Shown in pieces: positions 51,679-63,823 of a stretch of DNA of 64,000 bases. The first letter of the stretch is position 1. The number at the start of each line of letters is the position of its first letter. Source of the stretch: Dokdonella sp. (GTDB taxonomy: Bacteria; Pseudomonadota; Gammaproteobacteria; Xanthomonadales; Rhodanobacteraceae); NCBI GenBank assembly GCA_016712865.1, contig JADJQH010000002.1, positions 1-64,000 on the forward strand. The letters are read 5' to 3'. Under the pieces are notes generated by a model, which worked only from the letters and a program-made list of their open reading frames with translations, was not told the origin of the DNA and did no database searches. Position numbers and translations under genes: made by a program.

Positions 51679-54417
51679 ATGAAAGACAGCTTTTCGACCC
51701 ACGACACGCTGACAGTCAATGGCAGGAACTATCGCTTCGCAAGCTTGGCGCGACTGGAGTCGCGCTTCGACCTCAAGCGCCTGCCCTATTCGATGAAGAT
51801 CCTGCTCGAGAACCTGTTGCGGCATGAAGACGGAAGCAATGTCAGCGAACGGGAAATCGCAGCCGTTGCCGGCTGGAAAGCCGGCACCGAATCGGAAACC
51901 GAAATTGCCTTCATGCCGGCGCGCGTCGTGTTGCAGGACTTCACCGGCGTGCCGTGCGTGGTCGATCTTGCCGCCATGCGCGATGCCATGGTCGAACTCG
52001 GCGGAGATCCGACCCTGATCAATCCGCTGGTCCCCGCCGAACTGGTGATCGACCACTCGGTGCAGGTGGATTCCTTTGGCTCGGTGCACTCGCTCGACGA
52101 AAACGTGGAGATTGAATTCGAGCGCAACCAGGAACGCTATGCCTTCCTGCGCTGGGGGCAGAAGGCCTTCAACAATTTCAAGGTGGTGCCGCCACGCACC
52201 GGCATCGTGCACCAGGTCAACCTCGAGCATCTCGCCCGCGTGGTCATGACCGGCAAGCGCAACGGCGTCGAATGGGCCTTCCCCGACACGGTGTTCGGCA
52301 CCGACTCGCACACCACGATGATCAATGGCCTCGGCGTGTTGGGCTGGGGCGTGGGCGGCATCGAAGCCGAAGCCGCCATGCTGGGTGAACCCTCGTCCAT
52401 GCTGATTCCACAGGTGGTCGGTTTCCAGCTGAGCGGCCGTCTTGGCGAAGGGGTGACCGCTACCGACCTCGTGCTCACCATCACGCAGATGCTGCGCAAG
52501 CATGGTGTGGTCGGGAAATTCGTCGAGTTCTTCGGCAGCGGCCTCAAGCACCTGCCACTCGCCGATCGAGCCACCATCGCCAACATGGCGCCGGAGTACG
52601 GCGCAACCTGCGGCATCTTCCCGATCGACGCCGAATCCATCCGTTACCTCAGGCTGTCCGGACGCAGCGAAGAACAGATCGCACTGGTCGAAGCCTATGC
52701 AAGGGCCCAGCACCTCTGGCATGACGATGCGACGCCGGCGGCGGAATTCAGCTCGACGCTCAAACTCGACCTGGGCGACGTGCGGCCATCGATGGCCGGC
52801 CCGAAGCGGCCGCAGGACCGCGTCCTGCTCGGTGACATGCAGGCCAACTACGAAGCGGCGCTTGCGGGAATGACTGCTTCCCGCAAACCGAGGTCGGCAT
52901 CCGTCAACCGCTTTGAAGGCGAAGGCGGATCGACCGCCGTTGGACATGACACCAGCGCCTGCGCCACCGGATCGCATGTCCCCAAGGTGCCCTTGCAGGA
53001 TGGCGCCGTCGTCATTGCCGCAATCACTTCGTGCACCAACACGTCCAATCCCGCCGTCATGATTGCCGCGGGGCTCCTGGCGAGGAACGCCGCCGCACGC
53101 GGGTTGTGCGCGCGCCCCTGGGTGAAACCCTCGCTGGGGCCGGGCTCGCTGGTCGTGACCGATTACCTCAAGCAGACCGGCTTGCTGCATGAACTGGAGA
53201 AGGTCGGTTTCTATGTCGTCGGCTATGGCTGCACGACCTGCATCGGCAATTCGGGGCCGTTGCCCGCCGAAGTCAGCAAGGAAATTGCCGAAGGCGACCT
53301 CGCCGTGGTTTCGGTGCTCTCGGGCAACCGCAATTTCGAGGGACGCGTGCATCCCGAAGTGAAAATGAACTACCTGGCCTCGCCGCCGCTGGTGGTCGCC
53401 TACGCATTGGCCGGGACTGTCGACATCAATCTGGAAACCGATCCCCTCGGTGTCGGCAAGGATGGTATGCCGGTTTATCTCAAGGACATCTGGCCATCGA
53501 ACAAAGAGGTCGCTGATACCATCGCCGGAGCCATCAATCCCGCCATGTTCGCCTCGAATTATGCCGATGTGTTCAAGGGCGATTCGCGCTGGAACCACAT
53601 CGCATCCCCGGATGGCAACCAGTACGCATGGGGAGCATCGACCTACGTCAAGGCGCCCCCGTATTTCCATGGCATGCGCATGCAGGTTGGCGAGGTCACC
53701 GACATCATCGGCGCCAATGTGCTCGGCCTGTTCGGCGACTCGATAACCACCGATCACATCTCCCCGGCAGGAACCATCAAGAAGGACTCCCCGGCCGGCC
53801 GCTATCTGATCGAGCACGGCGTACAGCCCAGGGACTTCAATTCCTATGGCTCGCGCCGTGGCAACGATGAGGTGATGGTGCGTGGCACGTTTGCGAATAT
53901 CCGCATCAAGAACCTGATGCTGGATGGGGTGGAAGGCGGATTCACCTTGCACCTGCCGACAAACCGGGAACTGCCGATCTACGATGCGGCGATGCTCTAC
54001 AAGGCCGAGGGCATGCCACTGGTGGTGATTGCCGGAAAGGAATACGGCACCGGCTCCTCGCGTGACTGGGCAGCCAAGGGCACCCTCCTGCTCGGCGTCA
54101 GGGCAGTCATCGCGGAAAGTTTCGAGCGCATTCACCGCTCCAATCTGGTCGGCATGGGCGTCCTGCCCTGCCAGTTCAAGCCTGGTGACAGCGCGGCCAA
54201 GTTGGGTCTCAACGGCAAGGAGCGCTACGACATCAGCGGCCTGGACAAGGGCAATGCGCGCGAAGCCAGCGTCGTGGCCACCCGCGCCGACGGCTCACAA
54301 ATCCGCTTCACTGTCGATGTATTGCTGGCGACGCCGAAAGAGCGCGAGTTCTATCGCCATGGCGGCATCCTGCAGTACGTCCTGCGCCAGCTTGCAAGCC
54401 CCGCAATAAGGAACTGA
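51679..54417 (+). CDS. acnA: Aconitate hydratase A (acnA, rpfA in Xanthomonas)
   Basis: 912 aa, start ATG 51679 preceded by [25 protein letters not shown] and [19 protein letters not shown] are the AcnA N-terminus. Cluster ligands: [13 protein letters not shown] (about 452) and [14 protein letters not shown] (about 517-520, two Cys). [20 protein letters not shown] and [17 protein letters not shown] are the other signatures. AcnA is the stress-stable aconitase and can act as an RNA-binding regulator when its cluster is lost. In Xanthomonas campestris the homologue is rpfA, near rpfB and rpfF, and affects pathogenicity factors. Here it is followed by repeats and the rpf genes. Confidence 0.97.
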
Positions 54418-55425: not shown

Positions 55426-57114
55426 ATGTCTGGCAGCAACACGCGACCCTGGTTGAACAGTTACCCTGCAGGGATCCCTGCCGACATCGACCTCAACGAA
55501 TTTGCCTCGATCGTGGCCCTGCTGGAAAGCAGTTTCAAGCGCTTCCGGCACCGGCCTGCGTTTTCGAACATGGGGCGCACGATCAGCTACGGCGAGCTGG
55601 ACACGCTCAGCAACCAGTTTGCGCGTTTCCTGGTCAACGACCTGAAGATGGACAAGGGCGATCGCATCGCCATGATGATGCCCAATGTATTGCAGTATCC
55701 GATAGCGATCTGTGGTGCGCTGCGGGCGGGTCTTGTCATCGTCAACACCAATCCGATGTACACCGCACGCGAGCTGAAGCACCAGCTCGAAGACTCGGGC
55801 GCCACGGCAATCATCGTGCTCGAGAATTTTGCGCATACCCTCGCCGAAGTGATTGCCAGCACGCCGATAAAACACACCATCACCACCGGCGTTGGCGATC
55901 TGCTCGGATTTCCCAAGTCCGTGATCACCAATTTCGTGATTCGACGCGTGAAGAAGCTGGTCCCGGCGTATTCGCTTGCGAACGATATCCGCTTCGTCGA
56001 CGCACTGCGGCGTGGCGCAAGCGGTACCCTGCCCGCGGTCCAGGTTGATTCCGGTGATATCGCCTTCCTCCAGTACACCGGCGGTACCACCGGCGTTGCC
56101 AAGGGCGCCATGCTGACCCATCGCAACCTGATTGCAAACATGCAGCAGGCCAGCGCCTGGTTTGGCACGGAGATGAAGGAAGGCGAGGAAGTCATCATCA
56201 CCGCCCTGCCGCTGTACCACATCTTCGCGCTGACCGCGAATTGCCTGACCTTCATGAAGATCGGCGGGCTCAACCACCTGATCACCAATCCGCGTGACAT
56301 GAAGGGTTTTGTCGCCGAGCTTTCGCGTGTCAAATACAGCTGCATCACGGGAGTCAACACGCTGTTCAATGGCTTGCTCAACACGCCGGGATTCAGTGAT
56401 CTGGATTTCTCCGGCTTGCACATGACCCTGGGCGGCGGCATGGCGGTACAGCGCGCGGTGGCCGATCGCTGGAAGCAGGTGACCGGTTCGACCCTGGCCG
56501 AGGCCTATGGGCTCACGGAAACTTCGCCGGCGGTATGCATCAATCCTCTCGACATTTCGGGGTACAACGGCTCCATCGGGCTGCCGGTTCCTTCAACGGA
56601 AGTCAGCATCCAGAACGATGACGGCCAGGAACTCGGGATTGGCGAGGTCGGCGAACTGTGCGTTCGTGGTCCGCAGGTGATGAAGGGCTACTGGCAGCGT
56701 CCGGAGGAAACCGCCAAGGTGCTGGATGCACAGGGCTGGTTGCACACCGGCGACATCGCGCGCATGGACGAGAAAGGGTTCTTCTACATCGTTGACCGCA
56801 AGAAGGACATGATCCTTGTCTCCGGATTCAACGTTTACCCCAATGAGATCGAGGACGTGGTCGCCTCGCTGCCGGGCGTGCTGGAAGTCGCTGCCATCGG
56901 CATCCCGGACGACAAGAGTGGTGAGGCCGTCAAGCTGGTTGTGGTGAGGAAGGATCCTGCACTCAGCGAAGAGGCCATTCGCGCCCACTGCCGGACCGAG
57001 CTGACCGGCTACAAGCAGCCGAAGATCATCGAGTTCAGGGAATCACTGCCAAAAACCAATGTCGGCAAGATCCTCAGGCGCGAACTGCGGGATGCGGTAC
57101 CCGCCGGCAACTGA
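55426..57114 (+). CDS. rpfB: Long-chain fatty-acid--CoA ligase (FadD type; RpfB by position)
   Basis: 562 aa from ATG 55426 with GGGAGGA at 55416-55422; an ORF extension to 55255 is unsupported. AMP-forming ligase: P-loop QYTGGTTGVAKGAMLTHRN (about 215-232), AEAYGLTETSPAV (A5 motif), GWLHTGDIARMDEKGFFYIV (A7), DRKKDMILVSGFNVYPNEIE (A8) and a catalytic Lys near the end in KTNVGKILRRELR (A10). It activates long-chain fatty acids with ATP and CoA. In Xanthomonas the homologue rpfB lies directly before rpfF and alters the DSF profile. Here a PilZ gene (opposite strand), an ACP and a ketosynthase separate them. Confidence 0.9.
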   Translation: MSGSNTRPWLNSYPAGIPADIDLNEFASIVALLESSFKRFRHRPAFSNMGRTISYGELDTLSNQFARFLVNDLKMDKGDRIAMMMPNVLQYPIAICGALRAGLVIVNTNPMYTARELKHQLEDSGATAIIVLENFAHTLAEVIASTPIKHTITTGVGDLLGFPKSVITNFVIRRVKKLVPAYSLANDIRFVDALRRGASGTLPAVQVDSGDIAFLQYTGGTTGVAKGAMLTHRNLIANMQQASAWFGTEMKEGEEVIITALPLYHIFALTANCLTFMKIGGLNHLITNPRDMKGFVAELSRVKYSCITGVNTLFNGLLNTPGFSDLDFSGLHMTLGGGMAVQRAVADRWKQVTGSTLAEAYGLTETSPAVCINPLDISGYNGSIGLPVPSTEVSIQNDDGQELGIGEVGELCVRGPQVMKGYWQRPEETAKVLDAQGWLHTGDIARMDEKGFFYIVDRKKDMILVSGFNVYPNEIEDVVASLPGVLEVAAIGIPDDKSGEAVKLVVVRKDPALSEEAIRAHCRTELTGYKQPKIIEFRESLPKTNVGKILRRELRDAVPAGN

Positions 57115-57123
57115 GCAGATTGG

Positions 57124-57489
57124 CTACTGCGCTTCCGCGCAACCGGGCGGCGACTCCATCTCATCGGCATGATGGCCGAGCAGGTCCCACAGGATCTGCT
57201 CCTTTTCCTCGGGGATACGGGTAAAGGAAAAGGCAATACGCTCCGCGGTGGTTCGTGTTACCAGCGCTTCCAGGTGGATATGCCTGCCTTCGCCAACCAG
57301 CAGATCCAGCACGCAGCGCTGGCCAGTGCTGATCTCGCAATCCTCGGGCTGGATTGCCAGCATTCCGGAGGCCGAGATGTTGTCGACCACCGCTTCCCAG
57401 GATCGGGCGCCCATGCTGATCAGCACAACCAGTCGGATGTGCATGCGCGAGTGGCGCACAAACCGCCTGTTTGATTCATCACTGCTCAT
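57124..57489 (-). CDS. PilZ-domain protein
   Basis: 121 aa, start 57489 (MSSDESNRRFVRHSRMHIRL). The c-di-GMP-binding RxxxR reads RRFVR (residues 8-12) and the D/NxSxxG motif reads DNISASGM (about 36-43). Beta strands follow (RCVLDLLVGEGRHIHLEALV, ERIAFSFTRIP). A single-domain PilZ receptor of usual size. Convergent with rpfB (9 bp between stops). Its position in the locus that ends with the c-di-GMP phosphodiesterase rpfG makes a role in DSF output plausible, but this is inference. Not the usual Xanthomonas gene order. Confidence 0.88.
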   Translation of the reverse strand: MSSDESNRRFVRHSRMHIRLVVLISMGARSWEAVVDNISASGMLAIQPEDCEISTGQRCVLDLLVGEGRHIHLEALVTRTTAERIAFSFTRIPEEKEQILWDLLGHHADEMESPPGCAEAQ

Positions 57490-58025
57490 GCAAAGCTCCG
57501 CTGCCGGTAACGTGGATGGTCCAGTTCCTGCCCATCCATTTTCTGGAATGCGCGGTCAGGCCGCGCCTTTCGGTCAGGGTTGGAATGCAAACAATATGCC
57601 AAATAACCCCACAGTTCCCTGCAAATCGCGGGCGAATCCCTGCGTGTTCAACGAGCACCCTCCCGGAAATGGACCCCCATGCGCGGAACGGACCCGGTTG
57701 CAGGCGCGCATCAAACTCGCCCCATCCACACCCATTCATCGCGCCCGCCAGGCATCCCCACTGCGCATTCCAGGATTGCGAATGCCGCATTCTCGCAATG
57801 TCCCGTACAATTCACGCGTGCTCACTCGATGGCGTCACCGCTTGCATGACCATCCGCATCGGGTGCACAAGAGGGGTCCATACCAGTCCCTGAGACGGAA
57901 AGCCGGGCTTGCCAGAACGCATCCCCGCTCGCGTGTGTCTGGCTTTGCCGCTTTCCCGGCGCGGACGCCACGTTGCCGACAACAACCAAAACCGACTTGA
58001 ACGTTTCGAGACACAAGGCAAACCC
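57490..58025. other. Intergenic region between the PilZ gene and the ACP gene
   Basis: A 536-bp gap without a gene I can support. It must hold promoters for the PilZ gene (left) and the ACP-KS-rpfF run (right). A possible -10 TACAAT lies at 57806-57811 but no good -35 was found. A short hairpin (GCGAATGCCGCATTCTCGC, 57778-57796) is present. A TATTTGGCATATTG-type AT-rich patch at about 57594-57607 (minus) could serve the PilZ gene. Confidence 0.4.
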
Positions 58026-58289
58026 ATGAGCCAACCCGATGCAAACCAGATTTTCGCTTCATTGCAGCAGTTCCTGAACGAACGTTTCGACCTGGAGCCG
58101 ACTGGCTTGACCCGCGAAGCGACGTTGCGCAGCGTTGGCCTCGATTCGATGATGGTGCTCGATGTGATGCTGGAAGTCGAAGACAGGCTGGGGGTCAAAC
58201 TCGATGACATGAGCCTGCCAAAGGATGCAACGCTGGGTGACGTTGCGAACCTGATCAGCAGGAATCTGGAAAAATCCTCAGCGCCATGA
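58026..58289 (+). CDS. Acyl carrier protein
   Basis: 87 aa, start ATG 58026 (MSQPDANQIFASLQQFLNER). The phosphopantetheine site reads VGLDSMMVLDVMLE, with Ser41 in GLDS(M). Acidic C-terminal helices (DRLGVKLDDMSLPKDATLGD) are typical of ACPs. It is longer and more diverged from AcpP (about 78 aa), so probably a specialised carrier rather than the housekeeping one. The stop overlaps the next gene by 4 bp (ATGA), so ACP and ketosynthase are co-translated. Followed after the ketosynthase by rpfF, whose product works on acyl-ACP substrates. Confidence 0.9.
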   Translation: MSQPDANQIFASLQQFLNERFDLEPTGLTREATLRSVGLDSMMVLDVMLEVEDRLGVKLDDMSLPKDATLGDVANLISRNLEKSSAP

Positions 58290-59566
58290 CCAACCGCAGC
58301 AGCGATGTGCTGGTTACCGGCATCGGTGTCCTGTCACCGATTGGCTTGTCGATTGCCGAACTGGAACGCAGCCTGCTCAACAATCGGTCCGGCATCGGCC
58401 TTTGGCAATCTGAAGCGCTGTCGAAACCCGTGCCCGCTGGCCAGATCGGCACCGATTTCAGCGACCGCTTCAGCAAGCTAGAGCTGCCTTACCTTGATCG
58501 CTGCAGCCAGATTGCGATGCTCGCGGCCGACCAGGCCATTGATGATGCAGGACTCGCCGGCTTTGCAGAGTGCGGCCAGCGCGCCGGCCTCTTTTATGGT
58601 TCAGTTGCCGGCGGTGTGAAGACCGAACACGACTGGGTCAAACAGTTTGAACGGGATCGGACCCGCTCATCGCGACCGTTCACCATCATGGCCAGCATGC
58701 TCAACGCGGCACCCGCGCTGATCTCGATCAGGCACAAGATCCAGGGTCCGGTCGTGACCAACAGCAGCGCCTGCTCGTCGTCCGGCGTTTCCATCGGCGA
58801 GGGATTCCGCGCCATCCGCGATGGCTACCTGGACATGGCCCTGGTCGGCGGCGCCGAAGCGGCATTGACGCCAACCTTCATCGCCCTGTGGGGCGGCTTG
58901 CGGGCACTGGCAGAGCCTTGCGTGGACGATGTCGCACGCAGCTGCCGACCATTCTCGGTGGACCGTACCGGCCTCGTCCTCAGCGAAGGCGCGGTTTTCC
59001 TGATGCTTGAGTCCAGGCAGCATGCCGACCGGCGCTCGGCACGCCGCTACGGCAGGATTTCCGGCTATGGCATCGCCTCGGATGCATTTCATATCGGCTC
59101 CCCCGATACGGCAGGGCAAGCTGCGGCCCTGCGCGCGGCATTGGACTATGCCGGCCTGGAAGCGACGCAGATCGATTATTACAACGCCCACGCAACGGCC
59201 ACCCGGGGCGGCGATCCGGTGGAAGCGGCAGCAGTTCGGCAAACCTTTGCCGAGCACGCATCGCGCATGCCGGTCAGTTCCACCAAGGCCATCCACGGTC
59301 ACTTGCTGGGCGCTGCCAGCGCCATGGAACTGGCCGTGTGCACTTTGGCCGTCCGTGGCGGATTCCTGCCGGCCACCGCCCACCTGGTCGAAGCCGACCC
59401 GGAATGTGAACTCAACCATGTTCGCCAACAGCCCATCCTCGATCGGCAGGTGGAGCATGCCATGTCGCTTTCCGCAGGATTTGGCGGCACCAATGTGGCA
59501 CTAATTGTTTCAAAGGAGCACGATTCGCTCACGAAATCCCCTACTCCAGTGGAGAAGACTTCGTAA
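58286..59566 (+). CDS. Beta-ketoacyl-ACP synthase (FabF-like, KS II type)
   Basis: 426 aa, start ATG 58286. Catalytic Cys163 in TNSSACSSSGVSIGEG; the pair of His residues is His302 in YYNAHATATRGGDPVE and His339 in STKAIHGHLLGAAS, with Lys334 alongside. So a complete Cys-His-His condensing enzyme. VTGIGVLSPIGLSIAELERS is the family start and SLSAGFGGTNVALIV the end. It differs from FabF in size of the first loop and in the HATAT block, suggesting a specialised role. Translationally coupled to the ACP; its stop is 42 bp before rpfF. Expected reaction: extension of an acyl chain on the ACP with malonyl-ACP. Confidence 0.92.
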   Translation: MTNRSSDVLVTGIGVLSPIGLSIAELERSLLNNRSGIGLWQSEALSKPVPAGQIGTDFSDRFSKLELPYLDRCSQIAMLAADQAIDDAGLAGFAECGQRAGLFYGSVAGGVKTEHDWVKQFERDRTRSSRPFTIMASMLNAAPALISIRHKIQGPVVTNSSACSSSGVSIGEGFRAIRDGYLDMALVGGAEAALTPTFIALWGGLRALAEPCVDDVARSCRPFSVDRTGLVLSEGAVFLMLESRQHADRRSARRYGRISGYGIASDAFHIGSPDTAGQAAALRAALDYAGLEATQIDYYNAHATATRGGDPVEAAAVRQTFAEHASRMPVSSTKAIHGHLLGAASAMELAVCTLAVRGGFLPATAHLVEADPECELNHVRQQPILDRQVEHAMSLSAGFGGTNVALIVSKEHDSLTKSPTPVEKTS

Positions 59567-59608
59567 TCGGCGCTTCACCGGGAGGCGCCCAACCTTGAGG
59601 AGAGCGCC

Positions 59609-60484
59609 ATGAGAATCGCCCATGCCGTGCAGCAGGCACCAGAATCGCAACTGGTCCGCACCCGATTTGATCCTGACTCGAATCACACGCTCTGGCTGAC
59701 ACTGCCCGCTGGCATCGATGGCAGCGCGCCGCACTTCTCGCCGGAGTTGCTGGATGAGCTGCATGGGCTGCTCAAGGACATGCAGGATCGTGGAGTCAGC
59801 TGGCCCGTGGCTGGCGGCAGACAGAGCGTGCACTACACGGTGATGCGGTCTGCACATCCGGATTATTTCAGCCTGGGCGGTGACCTGGCGCTGTTCCGGG
59901 ATTGCATCCTGCGCAAGGATGCCATCGCCTTGCGAAACTACTCCATGCAATGCGCAAGCATGCTGCATGAATGGTCCAGCCTGCTGGGCAATGACGCAAC
60001 GACGATTGCACTGGTTCAGGGCCGCGCCCTCGGCGGCGGGTTCGAGACAGCTCTGGCCGCCGACTACATCGTTGCCGAGGAACACAGCGAATTCGGTTTT
60101 CCGGAAATCCTGTTTGGCCTGTTCCCTTGTACCGGCGGCATGAGTCTGTTGGCGCAGCGCATCGGCATTCGCGCTGCCGAACGCATGCTGTCCGATGGTC
60201 GCATCTACAGCGCATCAGCCCTCAAGGACATGGGCGTCGTGGATGAGGTCTGCGCGCACGGAGAAGGTGAAGCAGCGGTGGAAAAGCTGATTGCCAATCA
60301 CGCACGCCAGCGTGAGGCACGCCTTATGCTCCAGCGCAGCCGCCGGCGCCTGCAATCACTGGACTTGAAGGAACTGCACACGGTCGTCGAGGAGTGGACG
60401 CAGGTCGCCATGCAGCTGAGCAGCCAGAACCTGCGGGTGATGGAGGCGCTAGCGAAAATGCAGCGAGGGCGAGCCGCTGCTTGA
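59609..60484 (+). CDS. rpfF: DSF synthase RpfF (crotonase-fold enoyl-ACP hydratase/thioesterase)
   Basis: 291 aa, start ATG 59609. Crotonase fold with RpfF marks: YFSLGGDLALF (oxyanion hole), TIALVQGRALGGGFETALAA with Glu146, and SEFGFPEILFGLFPCTGG with Glu166. These align with the two catalytic Glu (141 and 161) of Xanthomonas RpfF. The C-terminal helices VEEWTQVAMQLSSQNLRVME and ALAKMQRG match too. RpfF makes cis-2-unsaturated fatty acid signals from 3-hydroxyacyl-ACP and releases them. Its 3' end overlaps the convergent rpfC gene by 36 bp. Upstream are the ACP and KS, likely in one transcript. Confidence 0.93.
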   Translation: MRIAHAVQQAPESQLVRTRFDPDSNHTLWLTLPAGIDGSAPHFSPELLDELHGLLKDMQDRGVSWPVAGGRQSVHYTVMRSAHPDYFSLGGDLALFRDCILRKDAIALRNYSMQCASMLHEWSSLLGNDATTIALVQGRALGGGFETALAADYIVAEEHSEFGFPEILFGLFPCTGGMSLLAQRIGIRAAERMLSDGRIYSASALKDMGVVDEVCAHGEGEAAVEKLIANHARQREARLMLQRSRRRLQSLDLKELHTVVEEWTQVAMQLSSQNLRVMEALAKMQRGRAAA

Positions 60485-62611
60485 CTCGGCAGCGTTGCCA
60501 GCGGCTTCAATCTCCCTGCGCAAGGCCGCAATGGTGATGCGCAGGGCTTCGGAGACGTCTGCTGCCCAGCGTTCGGCGCTGCGATCCAGATCGTCACCCG
60601 GTGTGGCCATCAGGCTGCTCGCCAAGGCATAGACGCGAACCGCGCCAACACTGCCGCTGACGCCCTTGAGCGCATGTGCCGCATCGCGGACTGCGCCATG
60701 CTGGCGCTTTTCCAGGGCCTCGAGAATGTGCTGCACACAGCGCACCATGTCGTGCTCCGCCTCGCGCAACAGGCTCGGAAAAAATTCAGCTCGGTGACTG
60801 ACCGTTTTCAGCTCGGCAATGATCTCCGCATCCAGCGCAGTGACGGCTACGCTGGTCAATGCCGGTTTTGCCTGACGAGCAGCGGAATACATGATCTCCT
60901 GGGAAATCTCCGCTTTCTCGGCTACGCCAGGCGCGCAGGCTTCAATTGCGCTCAGAGCCTTGCGCAACTTCAAGAGCGTCACCGGTTTGTACAGTACGGA
61001 TGAGCCGTTCGTGCATTCACTTATTCGCTGGGCAGTCTGCTGGGTCGTGTCCGCGGTGAGGAACAAGGCTGGCGTTGTCCTGGCGTGCCCGAAATGCCAG
61101 GTCTGCAGAACGCGCACGCCGTCCATGTCGCCGAGGTTGTAGTCCAGCAGAATCAGGTCGAAATCGCGCTCGGCGAGAATCTCTAGAGCCTCGGTGCCGC
61201 TGCTGCAGGTCGTTACCACGTGGCCGTCGATCTCCAGCAACTCTCGCAGGAGGATCAAGTTGGTTTCGTTGTCTTCCGCAACCAGAATGCGTTTGGGCGT
61301 CGAGATCGACCCGTCGTGCAGCGCATCTGTAGCATCGACCCCGGCAATCGCCAGGCACCGACCCATGGAGACTTCGAACCAGAAGAGCGACCCGCGACCT
61401 ATCTCACTCTCGAATCGGAGCACTCCACCCATCAATTCGACAATCTGGCGCGCAATAACCAGGCCCAGGCCGGTTCCGCCATACTTCTGATGTGTTCCCT
61501 GCCCCTGTGAAAATGGCTGGAACATCCTGTCCTTGAAAGCATCGGGAATGCCGATACCGGTGTCCGAGACACCGAAGCGCAGGACGTAGCGGGATTCTTC
61601 CATTCGAACCAGGTCAACGGTCAGGCGAACATGTCCCTGGTCCGTGAACTTCACGGCATTGCCGGAAAGATTGAGAAGCACTCGCCCCAAGTGATGCGCG
61701 TCGGTCTGCACGCGGTCCACGATGGCCGGATCCACCCTGATCTGGAAATCGATGCCTTTCTTGACGGCGATTTCAGCCAGCGCGGCATGCACGAGGTCTA
61801 CCTGGGCCTTGATATCCACTGGCGCAAGTTCAAGCCGAGTCGCGCCGGCATCAAGCTTTGCTTCATCGAGCAGATCATTGATCTCGCGCAGCAGCTTGCC
61901 GGAAAGCGACAGGATGGTATCCGCCCGTCGTCTGACCACTTCCTGGGTGGCCTCACCCGCCATCAGTTCCGTTGCCGAAATGATTCCCGCAAGGGGAGTC
62001 CGCAACTCGTGGCTCACCTTGGCCAACAGTTCCGACTTGGCCTTGCTTTCCCGTTCCGCGAGCTCGCGCGACTCGCGCAAGGACTTGATCAGCATGCCCG
62101 CGTACATGGGCACCACCAGCAAGGGAATGAGCAAGGCAAGGAAAGTGGTCAGGTGCTCCTGCCAATAGGGAACGCCAAGGCAAACCAGCAGGAACCCGGC
62201 CACAGCCGTCAACTGGCACAGGTACATCAATGGGCGACCGGTGCGGAAGCCGAAACCGAGGATGGTGAACAGGTAAAAGCCCACGATCAGCCCGCCGTAT
62301 TCACCGGTAACAACCAGCCACGCGGTGAGCGCCAGGGGATCCAGTACCGCCGTCGCCACCAGCAACGCACGCGACGACACGATCTGCGGGAAATGCACGA
62401 GAACGCGCAATGCCAGGATGTAGACGCAATACAGGATGGACAAAACCACCAGGCGGGCTGCGACACTGGCCGGCGAACCCAGGTAGAGAATGGTCTCGAC
62501 GATGATGACCGGCACGGCGACCAAAATGCGCAGCGTGGCCTGCGCCTTCAGAATATGACGCAGGGCGGATTCGGACTTGTCGGCTATGCCTTCAACGATG
62601 TCGGTGATCAT
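60449..62611 (-). CDS. rpfC: DSF sensor hybrid histidine kinase RpfC
   Basis: 720 aa, start 62611 (MITDIVEGIADKSESALRHI). About five to six TM helices in residues 25-175. HisKA with His201 (KVSHELRTPLAG), HATPase with N box LLNLSGNAVKFTD, DTGIGIP and GGTGLGLVIA. Receiver with Asp490 (LILLDYNLGDMDG). C-terminal HPt with His646 (DAAHALKGVSGSVG). The phospho-residues are at nearly the same places as in Xanthomonas RpfC (H198, D512, H657, from my knowledge of that protein). It senses DSF, phosphorelays to RpfG, and in Xanthomonas binds RpfF to limit synthesis. Convergent with rpfF. Confidence 0.92.
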   Translation of the reverse strand: MITDIVEGIADKSESALRHILKAQATLRILVAVPVIIVETILYLGSPASVAARLVVLSILYCVYILALRVLVHFPQIVSSRALLVATAVLDPLALTAWLVVTGEYGGLIVGFYLFTILGFGFRTGRPLMYLCQLTAVAGFLLVCLGVPYWQEHLTTFLALLIPLLVVPMYAGMLIKSLRESRELAERESKAKSELLAKVSHELRTPLAGIISATELMAGEATQEVVRRRADTILSLSGKLLREINDLLDEAKLDAGATRLELAPVDIKAQVDLVHAALAEIAVKKGIDFQIRVDPAIVDRVQTDAHHLGRVLLNLSGNAVKFTDQGHVRLTVDLVRMEESRYVLRFGVSDTGIGIPDAFKDRMFQPFSQGQGTHQKYGGTGLGLVIARQIVELMGGVLRFESEIGRGSLFWFEVSMGRCLAIAGVDATDALHDGSISTPKRILVAEDNETNLILLRELLEIDGHVVTTCSSGTEALEILAERDFDLILLDYNLGDMDGVRVLQTWHFGHARTTPALFLTADTTQQTAQRISECTNGSSVLYKPVTLLKLRKALSAIEACAPGVAEKAEISQEIMYSAARQAKPALTSVAVTALDAEIIAELKTVSHRAEFFPSLLREAEHDMVRCVQHILEALEKRQHGAVRDAAHALKGVSGSVGAVRVYALASSLMATPGDDLDRSAERWAADVSEALRITIAALRREIEAAGNAAESSSGSPSLHFR

Positions 62612-62743
62612 TCCCGGAGCCTCGCGCGTCCATTGCCGGTTGAACTGCTTGCGACGTTATTGGACAGCCCAGCGGTTTGATCGAGGCAGCCGAATGGATC
62701 CGATCCAAATTGCCATGCAGCGCTCGGAAACCATGCCAACGCC

Positions 62744-63823
62744 TCAGCCACCGCTGGCGGACGGCACCTGCTCCTGCTGGATTTCCGCTGCCTCCGCCCG
62801 CTTGGCCAACAGTACTCGCACGCAATTACTATCAAAAAGCGTGCCAGAGTGTTGCTGCAGGTAATCGCACGCTTCTTCGATTCCCCATGCCGGATGGTAG
62901 GGGCGCTCGGTCGTCAGTGCATCGAACACGTCGGCAACCGCAACGATACGGGCGACAAGGGGAATCTGCTCGCCCTTCAGTCCATCCGGGTAGCCACTGC
63001 CGTCCCAGCGTTCATGGTGACGCAGCGCAATCAGTGCCGCAGCCTGGATCACCTTGCTCTGGCTATCGCGCAGGATCTGCTCCCCGATCAGGGGATGGCG
63101 CCGCATGATGGCCATTTCCGCATCATCCAGGCACCCGGGTTTGAGCAATATCGACTCGGGGACGCCGATCTTGCCGATGTCATGCAAGGGGGCAGCCTGG
63201 ATCAGGACATGCACGTCTTCCTCGGACATGTCCAAACCGGATGCAATGAGTTCGCAATAACGCGCCATGCGCATGAGATGGGCACCTGCACCAAGCTCCC
63301 TCTGGTCGACTGCCCTGGCCAGTCGCAACAGGATGTCGTGCTCAAGAAAGCTCACCTCATGGGCGCTATCGAGCGCCTTCTGCTCGAGGGTTCGCGCGCG
63401 TTCCTTGATGGATTCCCCCTGGCGACGCATCTGCAGCAGGTTCTTGCAGCGTGAGCGCAGCTCGCGCGGACGCACGGGTTTGATGACGAAATCGATGACG
63501 CCCGAATCGAGGGCAGCCTGGCGAACCGGTTCATCACCGACCACGCTGATCAGCACGATCGGCACGTCGCGGCGGGAAATCGGTCGACGAAAGCGCCGCG
63601 CAAATTCCAGGCCGTCCATTTCCGGCATGCGGTAGTCGAGCAGCAGCAGGTCAGTGGTGTTGTTTTCCGACCAGCGCAAGGCGTCAATCGGATTGCCGAA
63701 ATCGCTGACCTTGACCACCGGACCGATGCCTTCGACAACATGCCTGAGCATGGTTCGAGCCGAGGCCTGGTCGTCGACAATCAAGACGTTCAAGTCGTTT
63801 CCTCCAGCAGATTCGAGGTCCAT
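62744..63823 (-). CDS. rpfG: Response regulator RpfG (REC-HD-GYP c-di-GMP phosphodiesterase)
   Basis: 359 aa, start 63823 (MDLESAGGNDLNVLIVDDQA). Receiver domain with Asp63 (LLLLDYRMPEMDG) and VIKPVRP. HD-GYP domain with LHDIGKIGVPESILLKPG (His214, Asp215), RRHPLIGEQIL, HHERWDGSGYPDGL (GYP 277-279) and RIVAVADVFDALTTERPYHP. All metal and signature residues are present, so active phosphodiesterase expected. It receives phosphate from RpfC and lowers c-di-GMP when DSF is sensed. Gap to rpfC of 132 bp on the same strand; probably one operon with rpfG first. Confidence 0.95.
   Translation of the reverse strand: MDLESAGGNDLNVLIVDDQASARTMLRHVVEGIGPVVKVSDFGNPIDALRWSENNTTDLLLLDYRMPEMDGLEFARRFRRPISRRDVPIVLISVVGDEPVRQAALDSGVIDFVIKPVRPRELRSRCKNLLQMRRQGESIKERARTLEQKALDSAHEVSFLEHDILLRLARAVDQRELGAGAHLMRMARYCELIASGLDMSEEDVHVLIQAAPLHDIGKIGVPESILLKPGCLDDAEMAIMRRHPLIGEQILRDSQSKVIQAAALIALRHHERWDGSGYPDGLKGEQIPLVARIVAVADVFDALTTERPYHPAWGIEEACDYLQQHSGTLFDSNCVRVLLAKRAEAAEIQQEQVPSASGG

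Follow-up and report, generated by a model that had tools for sequence, protein, structure and literature searches.

DSF loci described so far and the locus of Dokdonella sp.

The rpf/diffusible signal factor (DSF) system of Xanthomonas is among the closest described counterparts of the locus analysed here. Among xanthomonads, rpfF is convergent with an rpfC-rpfG operon and forms an operon with rpfB, with small variations (PMC4504480; this and the other papers are cited from the excerpts available to us). We analysed a stretch of 64,000 nucleotides from Dokdonella sp. (GenBank assembly GCA_016712865.1, contig JADJQH010000002.1, positions 1 to 64,000; hereafter the window), which holds a complete rpf-type locus in the order acnA-rpfB-PilZ-ACP-KS-rpfF-rpfC-rpfG. 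It shares with Xanthomonas the acnA-rpfB...rpfG locus and the convergence of the RpfF crotonase gene with that of the RpfC hybrid kinase, together with an HD-GYP RpfG. In contrast to Xanthomonas, genes for an acyl carrier protein (ACP) and a beta-ketoacyl-ACP synthase (KS) stand before rpfF, RpfF is 35-38% identical to the five canonical sequences of our RpfF alignment (A1), RpfC does not have the RPDSExxQ motif, and a PilZ gene on the opposite strand parts rpfB from rpfF.

The nearest precedent for a paired exchange of RpfF and RpfC is found in the rpf-1 and rpf-2 variants of Stenotrophomonas maltophilia, two RpfF/RpfC pairs whose members always co-occur and for which exchange between bacteria has been suggested (PMC4517397). 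What mainly distinguishes those variants is the N-terminal part of each protein, and the excerpt makes no mention of ACP or KS genes ("acyl carrier" occurs once in the paper and "ketoacyl" nowhere), whereas the Dokdonella set has split off more deeply and includes two further genes, both biosynthetic. In Burkholderia, the synthase gene is likewise convergent with its receptor gene (PMC4504480), but the receptor is RpfR, and the five Burkholderia records listed from a plasmid collection are 30-31% identical to the window RpfF. Pseudomonas aeruginosa dspI encodes an RpfF homologue in a cluster implicated in fatty-acid metabolism, although its description, as excerpted, mentions neither an ACP-KS pair nor RpfC (PMC4504480). 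We found no account of an ACP-KS pair at rpfF in the open-access literature, a search that leaves most subscription papers outside, in agreement with the preliminary description of the locus, which knew of none. Papers that name both rpfF and a ketosynthase dealt, where checked, with other ketosynthases, and PMC5941067 is about a FabG2 with a role in DSF synthesis. Outside the DSF field, rhizobia have in NodF and NodE an ACP and a FabF-like KS dedicated to setting the acyl chain of a signal. The signals concerned, the Nod factors, are lipo-chitooligosaccharides that NodA makes, and neither RpfF nor RpfC is known to take part. The window ACP matches NodF (1fh1) weakly (E 0.022).

The four genes considered here are:

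58026-58289, + strand: ACP, 87 amino acids, phosphopantetheine site Ser41 (PF00550, 37 bits)
58286-59566, + strand: FabF-type beta-ketoacyl-ACP synthase, 426 amino acids, Cys163/His302/Lys334/His339 (PF00109 and PF02801)
59609-60484, + strand: RpfF-type crotonase, 291 amino acids, E146 and E166 conserved (structure and profile matches)
60449-62611, - strand: RpfC-type hybrid sensor kinase with HisKA, HATPase, REC and Hpt domains (domain matches)

The ACP and KS genes overlap by 4 bp (ATGA, 58286-58289), 42 bp separate the KS stop (59566) from the RpfF start codon (59609), and the convergent rpfF and rpfC overlap at their 3' ends by 36 nt (60449-60484). The preliminary description had reported the ACP Ser41, the 4-bp overlap, the Cys-His-His set of the KS, the 42-bp gap and both RpfF glutamates, all of which we confirmed at the positions given. 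Its account of the locus holds for ACP-KS-rpfF and left out the rpfF/rpfC overlap, rpfG, the PilZ gene and the separate RpfF lineage described below.

A conserved, relocating four-gene unit

The genes for ACP, KS, RpfF and RpfC are conserved together as one relocating unit (hereafter the cassette) whose RpfFs share a single ancestry. It is present in 16 genomes: 13 of the 233 from the family, two from a second family within the order and one from a betaproteobacterium. RpfF matched 86 of 299 genomes of the order (E <= 1e-20), six of these matches being of a close kind (the window's own, followed by sequences of 48-68% identity) and the rest 35-46% identical. Comparison of the window proteins with 30 of these loci by tblastn revealed a KS upstream of rpfF in 6/6 close-kind loci versus 0/24 canonical ones. 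A separate KS search (E <= 1e-85) of the same 299 genomes, which covers the loci not read from the RpfF search, picked the same six genomes. Within the family, all 13 genomes with a KS at E <= 1e-100 carry it beside cassette-type RpfF and RpfC. A sample of the class gave RpfF (E <= 1e-30) in 66 of 369 genomes, with the close kind in Dokdonella's own genome only, and no KS or ACP match beside rpfF at 29 other loci (30 of 67 matches were read). Taken together, 0/53 canonical rpfF loci (24 from the order and 29 from the class) have a KS or ACP match within about 1.5 kb, four of them (L083, L087, L089, L093) having less than 1 kb of sequence upstream of rpfF. The preliminary description had called for such a survey of rpfF neighbourhoods, and its outcome is that ACP and KS are not placed at random around rpfF; they are fixed to one RpfF clade, with tight ACP-KS-rpfF spacing in most cassettes. 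Chance neighbourhood of the genes is rejected by the recurrence of ACP-KS-RpfF-RpfC in 15 further genomes.

Scanning species genomes with the KS gave 16 loci, two of them with rpfF: L098, which is the sequence of genome G316 again, and L099, from the betaproteobacterium RIFCSPLOWO2_02_FULL_63_19 (genome G820), whose ACP, KS, RpfF and RpfC are 43%, 55%, 54% and 44% identical to those of the window. The remaining 14 loci hold KSs of 24-40% identity without rpfF. In the order of G820, 36 of 349 genomes had a KS match at E <= 1e-88, and all but G820 carry FabF-like proteins of 40-46% identity; rpfF was absent within about 1.5 kb at the 19 loci read from those 35 genomes. Eight loci of this order were fetched with longer flanks and the neighbours of five were run against Pfam. 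At L160, L161 and L164 of this order, KSs resembling that of the cassette lie near S33-type alpha/beta hydrolases, with a polysaccharide deacetylase in L161 as well. In L160 and L161 the KS is immediately preceded by a small gene with sub-cut-off matches to ACP models, a further setting for an ACP and a KS. Plasmids yielded 16 records of RpfF kin, with 30-41% identity among the 15 matches listed, and the two plasmid regions inspected (Methylobacterium, Sphingomonas) have no annotated ACP or KS; viral contigs gave one RpfF match, of 31% identity.

The window RpfF has its best solved-structure matches in 7zq7 (E 9.8e-47) and RpfF 3m6m (E 1.6e-46), and it matches RpfF structures far better than other crotonases. 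E146 and E166, which we take to be the catalytic glutamate pair, are invariant across the 20 rows of alignment A1, where the crotonase core is also kept. The protein scores 275.4 bits on PRK08788 (cut-off 177) and misses the NCBIfam equivalog NF053515 (192.8 bits against a cut-off of 550), a cut-off that is evidently narrow, since two canonical RpfFs from relatives also fall short of it (405.3 and 410.9 bits). A loop reads FPCTG in 15 cassette rows of A1 versus FPGMG in the five canonical rows. In a tree of 71 RpfF sequences (16 cassette members and 55 canonical ones from the order and the class, without L013, L027 and L032, which duplicate L057, L059 and L058), the cassette members form one clade (SH-aLRT 99) apart from the canonical sequences. 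A single change of label is needed on this tree, compared with a mean of 14.6 after shuffling, and 0/500 shuffles were as low. The tree is a quick one with long branches, and the long-branched canonical row L087 is placed beside the cassette clade with a weak support of 65, flagged as unsafe by the program. In more careful trees, the 15 complete cassette KSs and the 16 cassette RpfCs each form one clade separated from the outgroup with support 100/100; two RpfC rows longer than 760 residues (reading frames of L053 and L055) were trimmed to their last 700 residues. On a possible horizontal transfer between the order and the betaproteobacterium, an approximately unbiased (AU) test with all members of the order kept together gave p 0.27 for RpfC and 0.32 for KS.

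The position of the cassette was compared with that of the host genes of the rpf locus, which in the window are:

51679-54417, + strand: acnA, aconitase, upstream marker of the rpf locus (tblastn synteny)
55426-57114, + strand: rpfB (profile matches and synteny)
57124-57489, - strand: rpf-locus gene for a protein with a PilZ domain, antiparallel to rpfB and ACP (domain match)
62744-63823, - strand: RpfG-type response regulator (REC-HD-GYP), a host rpf-locus gene (domain matches)

The putative acnA goes by the name of rpfA in Xanthomonas. The presence of rpfB, rpfF, rpfC and rpfG at one locus identifies an rpf gene cluster, in synteny with L055, L058 and L059. Three genomes have the set at the rpf locus in the same orientation (the window, G316, and G319, which lacks rpfG before its contig end) and seven have it there inverted (G150, G448, G440, G443, G445, G439 and G444, the contig of the last stopping short of the rpfG side). 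In the other six (G261, G265, G318, G268, G288 and the betaproteobacterium) it lies away from that locus. G261 and G268 retain the canonical rpfF-rpfC next to rpfB and rpfG as well. In G265 and G288 the cassette RpfF is the sole RpfF at E <= 1e-25, and their rpf locus has no rpfF or rpfC, reading acnA-rpfB-rpfG with a PilZ gene after rpfB in G265 only; G031 and G214, of the same genus, lack the cassette KS and have canonical rpfF and rpfC at that site. Gene order across the 16 genomes thus indicates that RpfC moves with ACP, KS and RpfF while RpfG stays, and RpfG is a gene of the host rpf locus, with no fixed place in the mobile set. The ACP of G288 has a Dus gene and a gene for a phage integrase less than 3 kb away (L054, 4873-7231), a hint of an integrated element; no direct repeat of at least 18 nt was found in 20 kb of L054, nor was a tRNA found.

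In most cassettes the genes are narrowly spaced. Between ACP and KS there are -4 to 5 nt in 11 cassettes, a value of 136 in G440 being an artefact of a start placed too late by an ATG-only script, and 34-69 nt separate KS from rpfF in the 15 cassettes measured. Of these 15, 13 have rpfF and rpfC tails that overlap by 27-36 nt, versus none of five canonical loci, and the reading frames of the betaproteobacterial pair overlap by 11 nt; no shared hairpin was seen by eye in this overlap, where single-strand folds differ between members. Start codons in relatives were picked by script and may be wrong (the KS of L064; the RpfCs of L050, L053 and L061). The ACP is present in 15/15 cassettes whose ACP position is sequenced; the contig of L068 (G444) starts within the KS, so that its ACP position lies off the sequence, and this interrupted KS was omitted from the KS and distance analyses.

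The ACP and KS could be accessory genes of fatty-acid or lipid metabolism that travel with rpfF-rpfC as passengers and supply nothing to RpfF. The related FabF-like KSs found in other contexts in the order of G820, with an ACP match directly upstream at 10 of the 19 loci read, would fit such a passenger, as would the single origin of the association in the RpfF tree. We nevertheless consider it quite improbable: the set is kept through inversion, relocation, absence of the canonical genes and RpfF divergence that reaches 44-47% identity, and the ACP is retained even where gene order has changed (L053, L054).

Biosynthetic enzymes and sensor of the cassette

The ACP carries its Ser41 within the motif GLDSMM and falls below the cut-offs of all eight NCBIfam ACP models that it matched (best 36.4 bits against 66), and the KS reaches 350.1 bits on the NCBIfam fabF model TIGR03150, short of the cut-off of 493.75. 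The same genome encodes, at other sites, a FabF (655 bits, same cut-off), a FabB (653.7 bits, cut-off 630) and, adjoining the housekeeping FabF, an AcpP (152.1 bits, cut-off 106). Since these proteins pass the cut-offs that the window ACP and KS miss, the pair is extra to the housekeeping set. Duplication of the housekeeping FabF as the source of the KS is rejected, the genome's own FabF and FabB being only 34% and 31% identical to it, passing their cut-offs and lying elsewhere.

In what we take to be the numbering of E. coli FabF, Cys163, His303, Lys335, His340, Phe400, Thr305 and Thr307 are kept in 15/15 complete cassette KSs, so that the Cys-His-Lys-His set and gate Phe of FabF (KAS II) are found in every one. 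Other active-site positions distinguish the cassette KSs from 35 comparison KSs. Position 304 is Ala in 15/15 versus Gly in 33/35, the changes T270G and G107V occur in 15/15 versus 0/35, and position 398 is Ala, Cys or Ser in 15/15, where the comparison KSs have Phe (31/35) or Leu (4). Position 108, mostly small in the cassettes (Ala 5, Gly 5, Asn 2, Thr 1, Arg 1, Ile 1), is Ile, Met or Leu in 31/35 comparison KSs; I108 and F202 are the gating residues of the FabF acyl pocket (PMC7138838). By its residues, the cassette KS looks like a working elongating enzyme with a reshaped active site.

The kinds of gene involved (ACP, KS, a member of the enoyl-CoA hydratase family) are similar to those of beta-branching (HMG-CoA synthase-like) cassettes, in which an ACP, a decarboxylating KS and a crotonase act on a polyketide, and the locus might be a remnant or relative of one. 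Decarboxylating KSs of beta-branching cassettes, however, typically lack the active-site Cys, which is kept in 15/15 KSs here. The 28 genes from the window and its flanks that were run against Pfam include no HMG-CoA synthase, RpfF is far closer to RpfF structures than to other crotonases, and RpfC adjoins in 16/16 cassettes, all of which makes this origin very hard to credit.

The window RpfC shows the HisKA-HATPase-REC-Hpt phosphorelay with its motifs present, its transmembrane helices being judged by eye. Residues Arg15, Asp17, Ser18, Glu19 and Gln22 of the RpfC of Xanthomonas campestris pv. campestris, which precede the first helix, are essential for DSF detection (PMC5391125), and the window RpfC does not have this set. 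The corresponding motif, RPDSExxQ, is found in 6/6 canonical RpfCs versus 0/16 cassette RpfCs, and nine of those 16 carry D[KR][ST]E close to the N-terminal end instead. Mean identity of the window RpfC to canonical RpfCs is 22% in the membrane part and 38% in the kinase core, compared with 54% and 58% to the other cassette RpfCs. Tree distances of the module genes correlate at 0.84-0.93 pairwise (15 members). By these comparisons RpfC is part of the module and has diverged together with ACP, KS and RpfF.

The ratio of nonsynonymous to synonymous substitution rates (dN/dS) in three close pairs is 0.05-0.09 for ACP, 0.09-0.14 for KS, 0.09-0.10 for rpfF and 0.11-0.15 for rpfC, which indicates that all four module genes are under purifying selection.

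These features also bear on the possibility that the ACP-KS product is something other than a cis-2-enoic acid, for instance an acid bearing a 3-hydroxy or 3-keto group or a chain built from an unusual extender, with RpfF acting mainly as a releasing enzyme and the sensor reading that molecule. The active-site substitutions common to 15/15 complete KSs, the FPCTG loop of RpfF and the absence of the DSF-sensing motif from 16/16 sensors would all be compatible with it, and RpfF has thioesterase activity in addition to its dehydratase activity (PMC4504480). Against it, neither the two catalytic Glu nor the crotonase core varies, which is what retained dehydration would predict, and we regard such a product as unlikely.

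Proposed function of the cassette

We consider it fairly probable, from the sequence comparisons above, that the cassette is a self-contained variant of the DSF system in which RpfF receives a chain set by a private ACP-KS pair and what it releases is read by a matched RpfC. The private ACP and the FabF-type KS would complete a specific acyl chain on this dedicated carrier by its last condensation or condensations, with malonyl supply and reduction assumed to come from the host FabD and FabG. The RpfF-type crotonase would then dehydrate the 3-hydroxyacyl chain and release a cis-2-enoic, DSF-like acid, which the co-encoded and co-diverged RpfC would sense, passing the signal to the host RpfG or to another regulator. 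What we infer here is which reactions take place, which signal results, that the receptor matches it and that the genes are co-transcribed. Supply of a private chain by ACP-KS is the best reading of the complete catalytic set, the altered KS residues and the purifying selection, and it may find a purpose in the behaviour of RpfF itself. The substrate of RpfF is 3-hydroxyacyl-ACP (PMC4504480), and the pattern of DSF signals tracks substrate supply more than which RpfF is used (PMC4504480, PMC4958263). A private chain had been proposed in the preliminary description and is partly supported; the comparative test favours that proposal, which overlooked the sensor RpfC as a diverged member of the module.

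Several observations weigh against this reading. The set contains no ketoreductase or acyltransferase gene, so that FabG and FabD must serve the private ACP. Pocket position 202 of the KS is the same (Trp or Phe) in the cassette and comparison groups. The ACP of G268 and G288 (L053, L054) lies about 3 kb from the KS, past rpfC, and a scan of 57400-62800 for sigma-70-like promoters gave 0 sites against 1.2 expected. Because the association of ACP and KS with RpfF has a single origin in the RpfF tree, the 16 cassettes do not represent independent gains. In the pair formed by the window and L060, dN/dS is 0.08-0.14 for the module versus 0.05 for acnA and 0.06 for rpfB, the module being the less constrained. 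Distances of the module genes also correlate with those of rpfB (13 members) or acnA (11 members), at 0.60-0.82, and part of the co-divergence is thus common descent. Finally, RpfG was not found at E <= 1e-90 in G318 (85% complete) or in G820, which means that the output partner is not constant.

Taken further, the cassette would define a second, orthogonal class of DSF-type signalling: a portable ACP-KS-RpfF-RpfC unit that makes its own chain outside the common fatty-acid pool, perceives it through a matched receptor that lacks the DSF-binding motif known so far, occurs beside the canonical rpfF-rpfC or takes its place, and uses the host RpfG or other regulators. We put the chances of this broader view at about even. 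The type of DSF made by a strain depends on substrate supply, host and medium (PMC4504480, PMC4958263), and an ACP and KS of its own would, if the proposal is true, give the system a built-in means of fixing the identity of the signal against a pool-dependent mixture. G261 and G268, which have both systems, could show whether two DSF channels run in one cell, and the altered RpfC offers a natural comparison for ligand choice by fatty-acid receptors.

Other regulators are encoded near some of these genes. In the betaproteobacterium, a response regulator with REC and adenylate/guanylate cyclase domains (L099, 14679-15722) lies near the cassette RpfC, and output there may run via the cyclase and not via RpfG. 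The opposite-strand PilZ gene that stands between rpfB and ACP in the window is possibly a part of the rpf locus linked to cyclic di-GMP, and within the family several rpf loci, canonical as well as cassette-bearing, have such a gene after rpfB.

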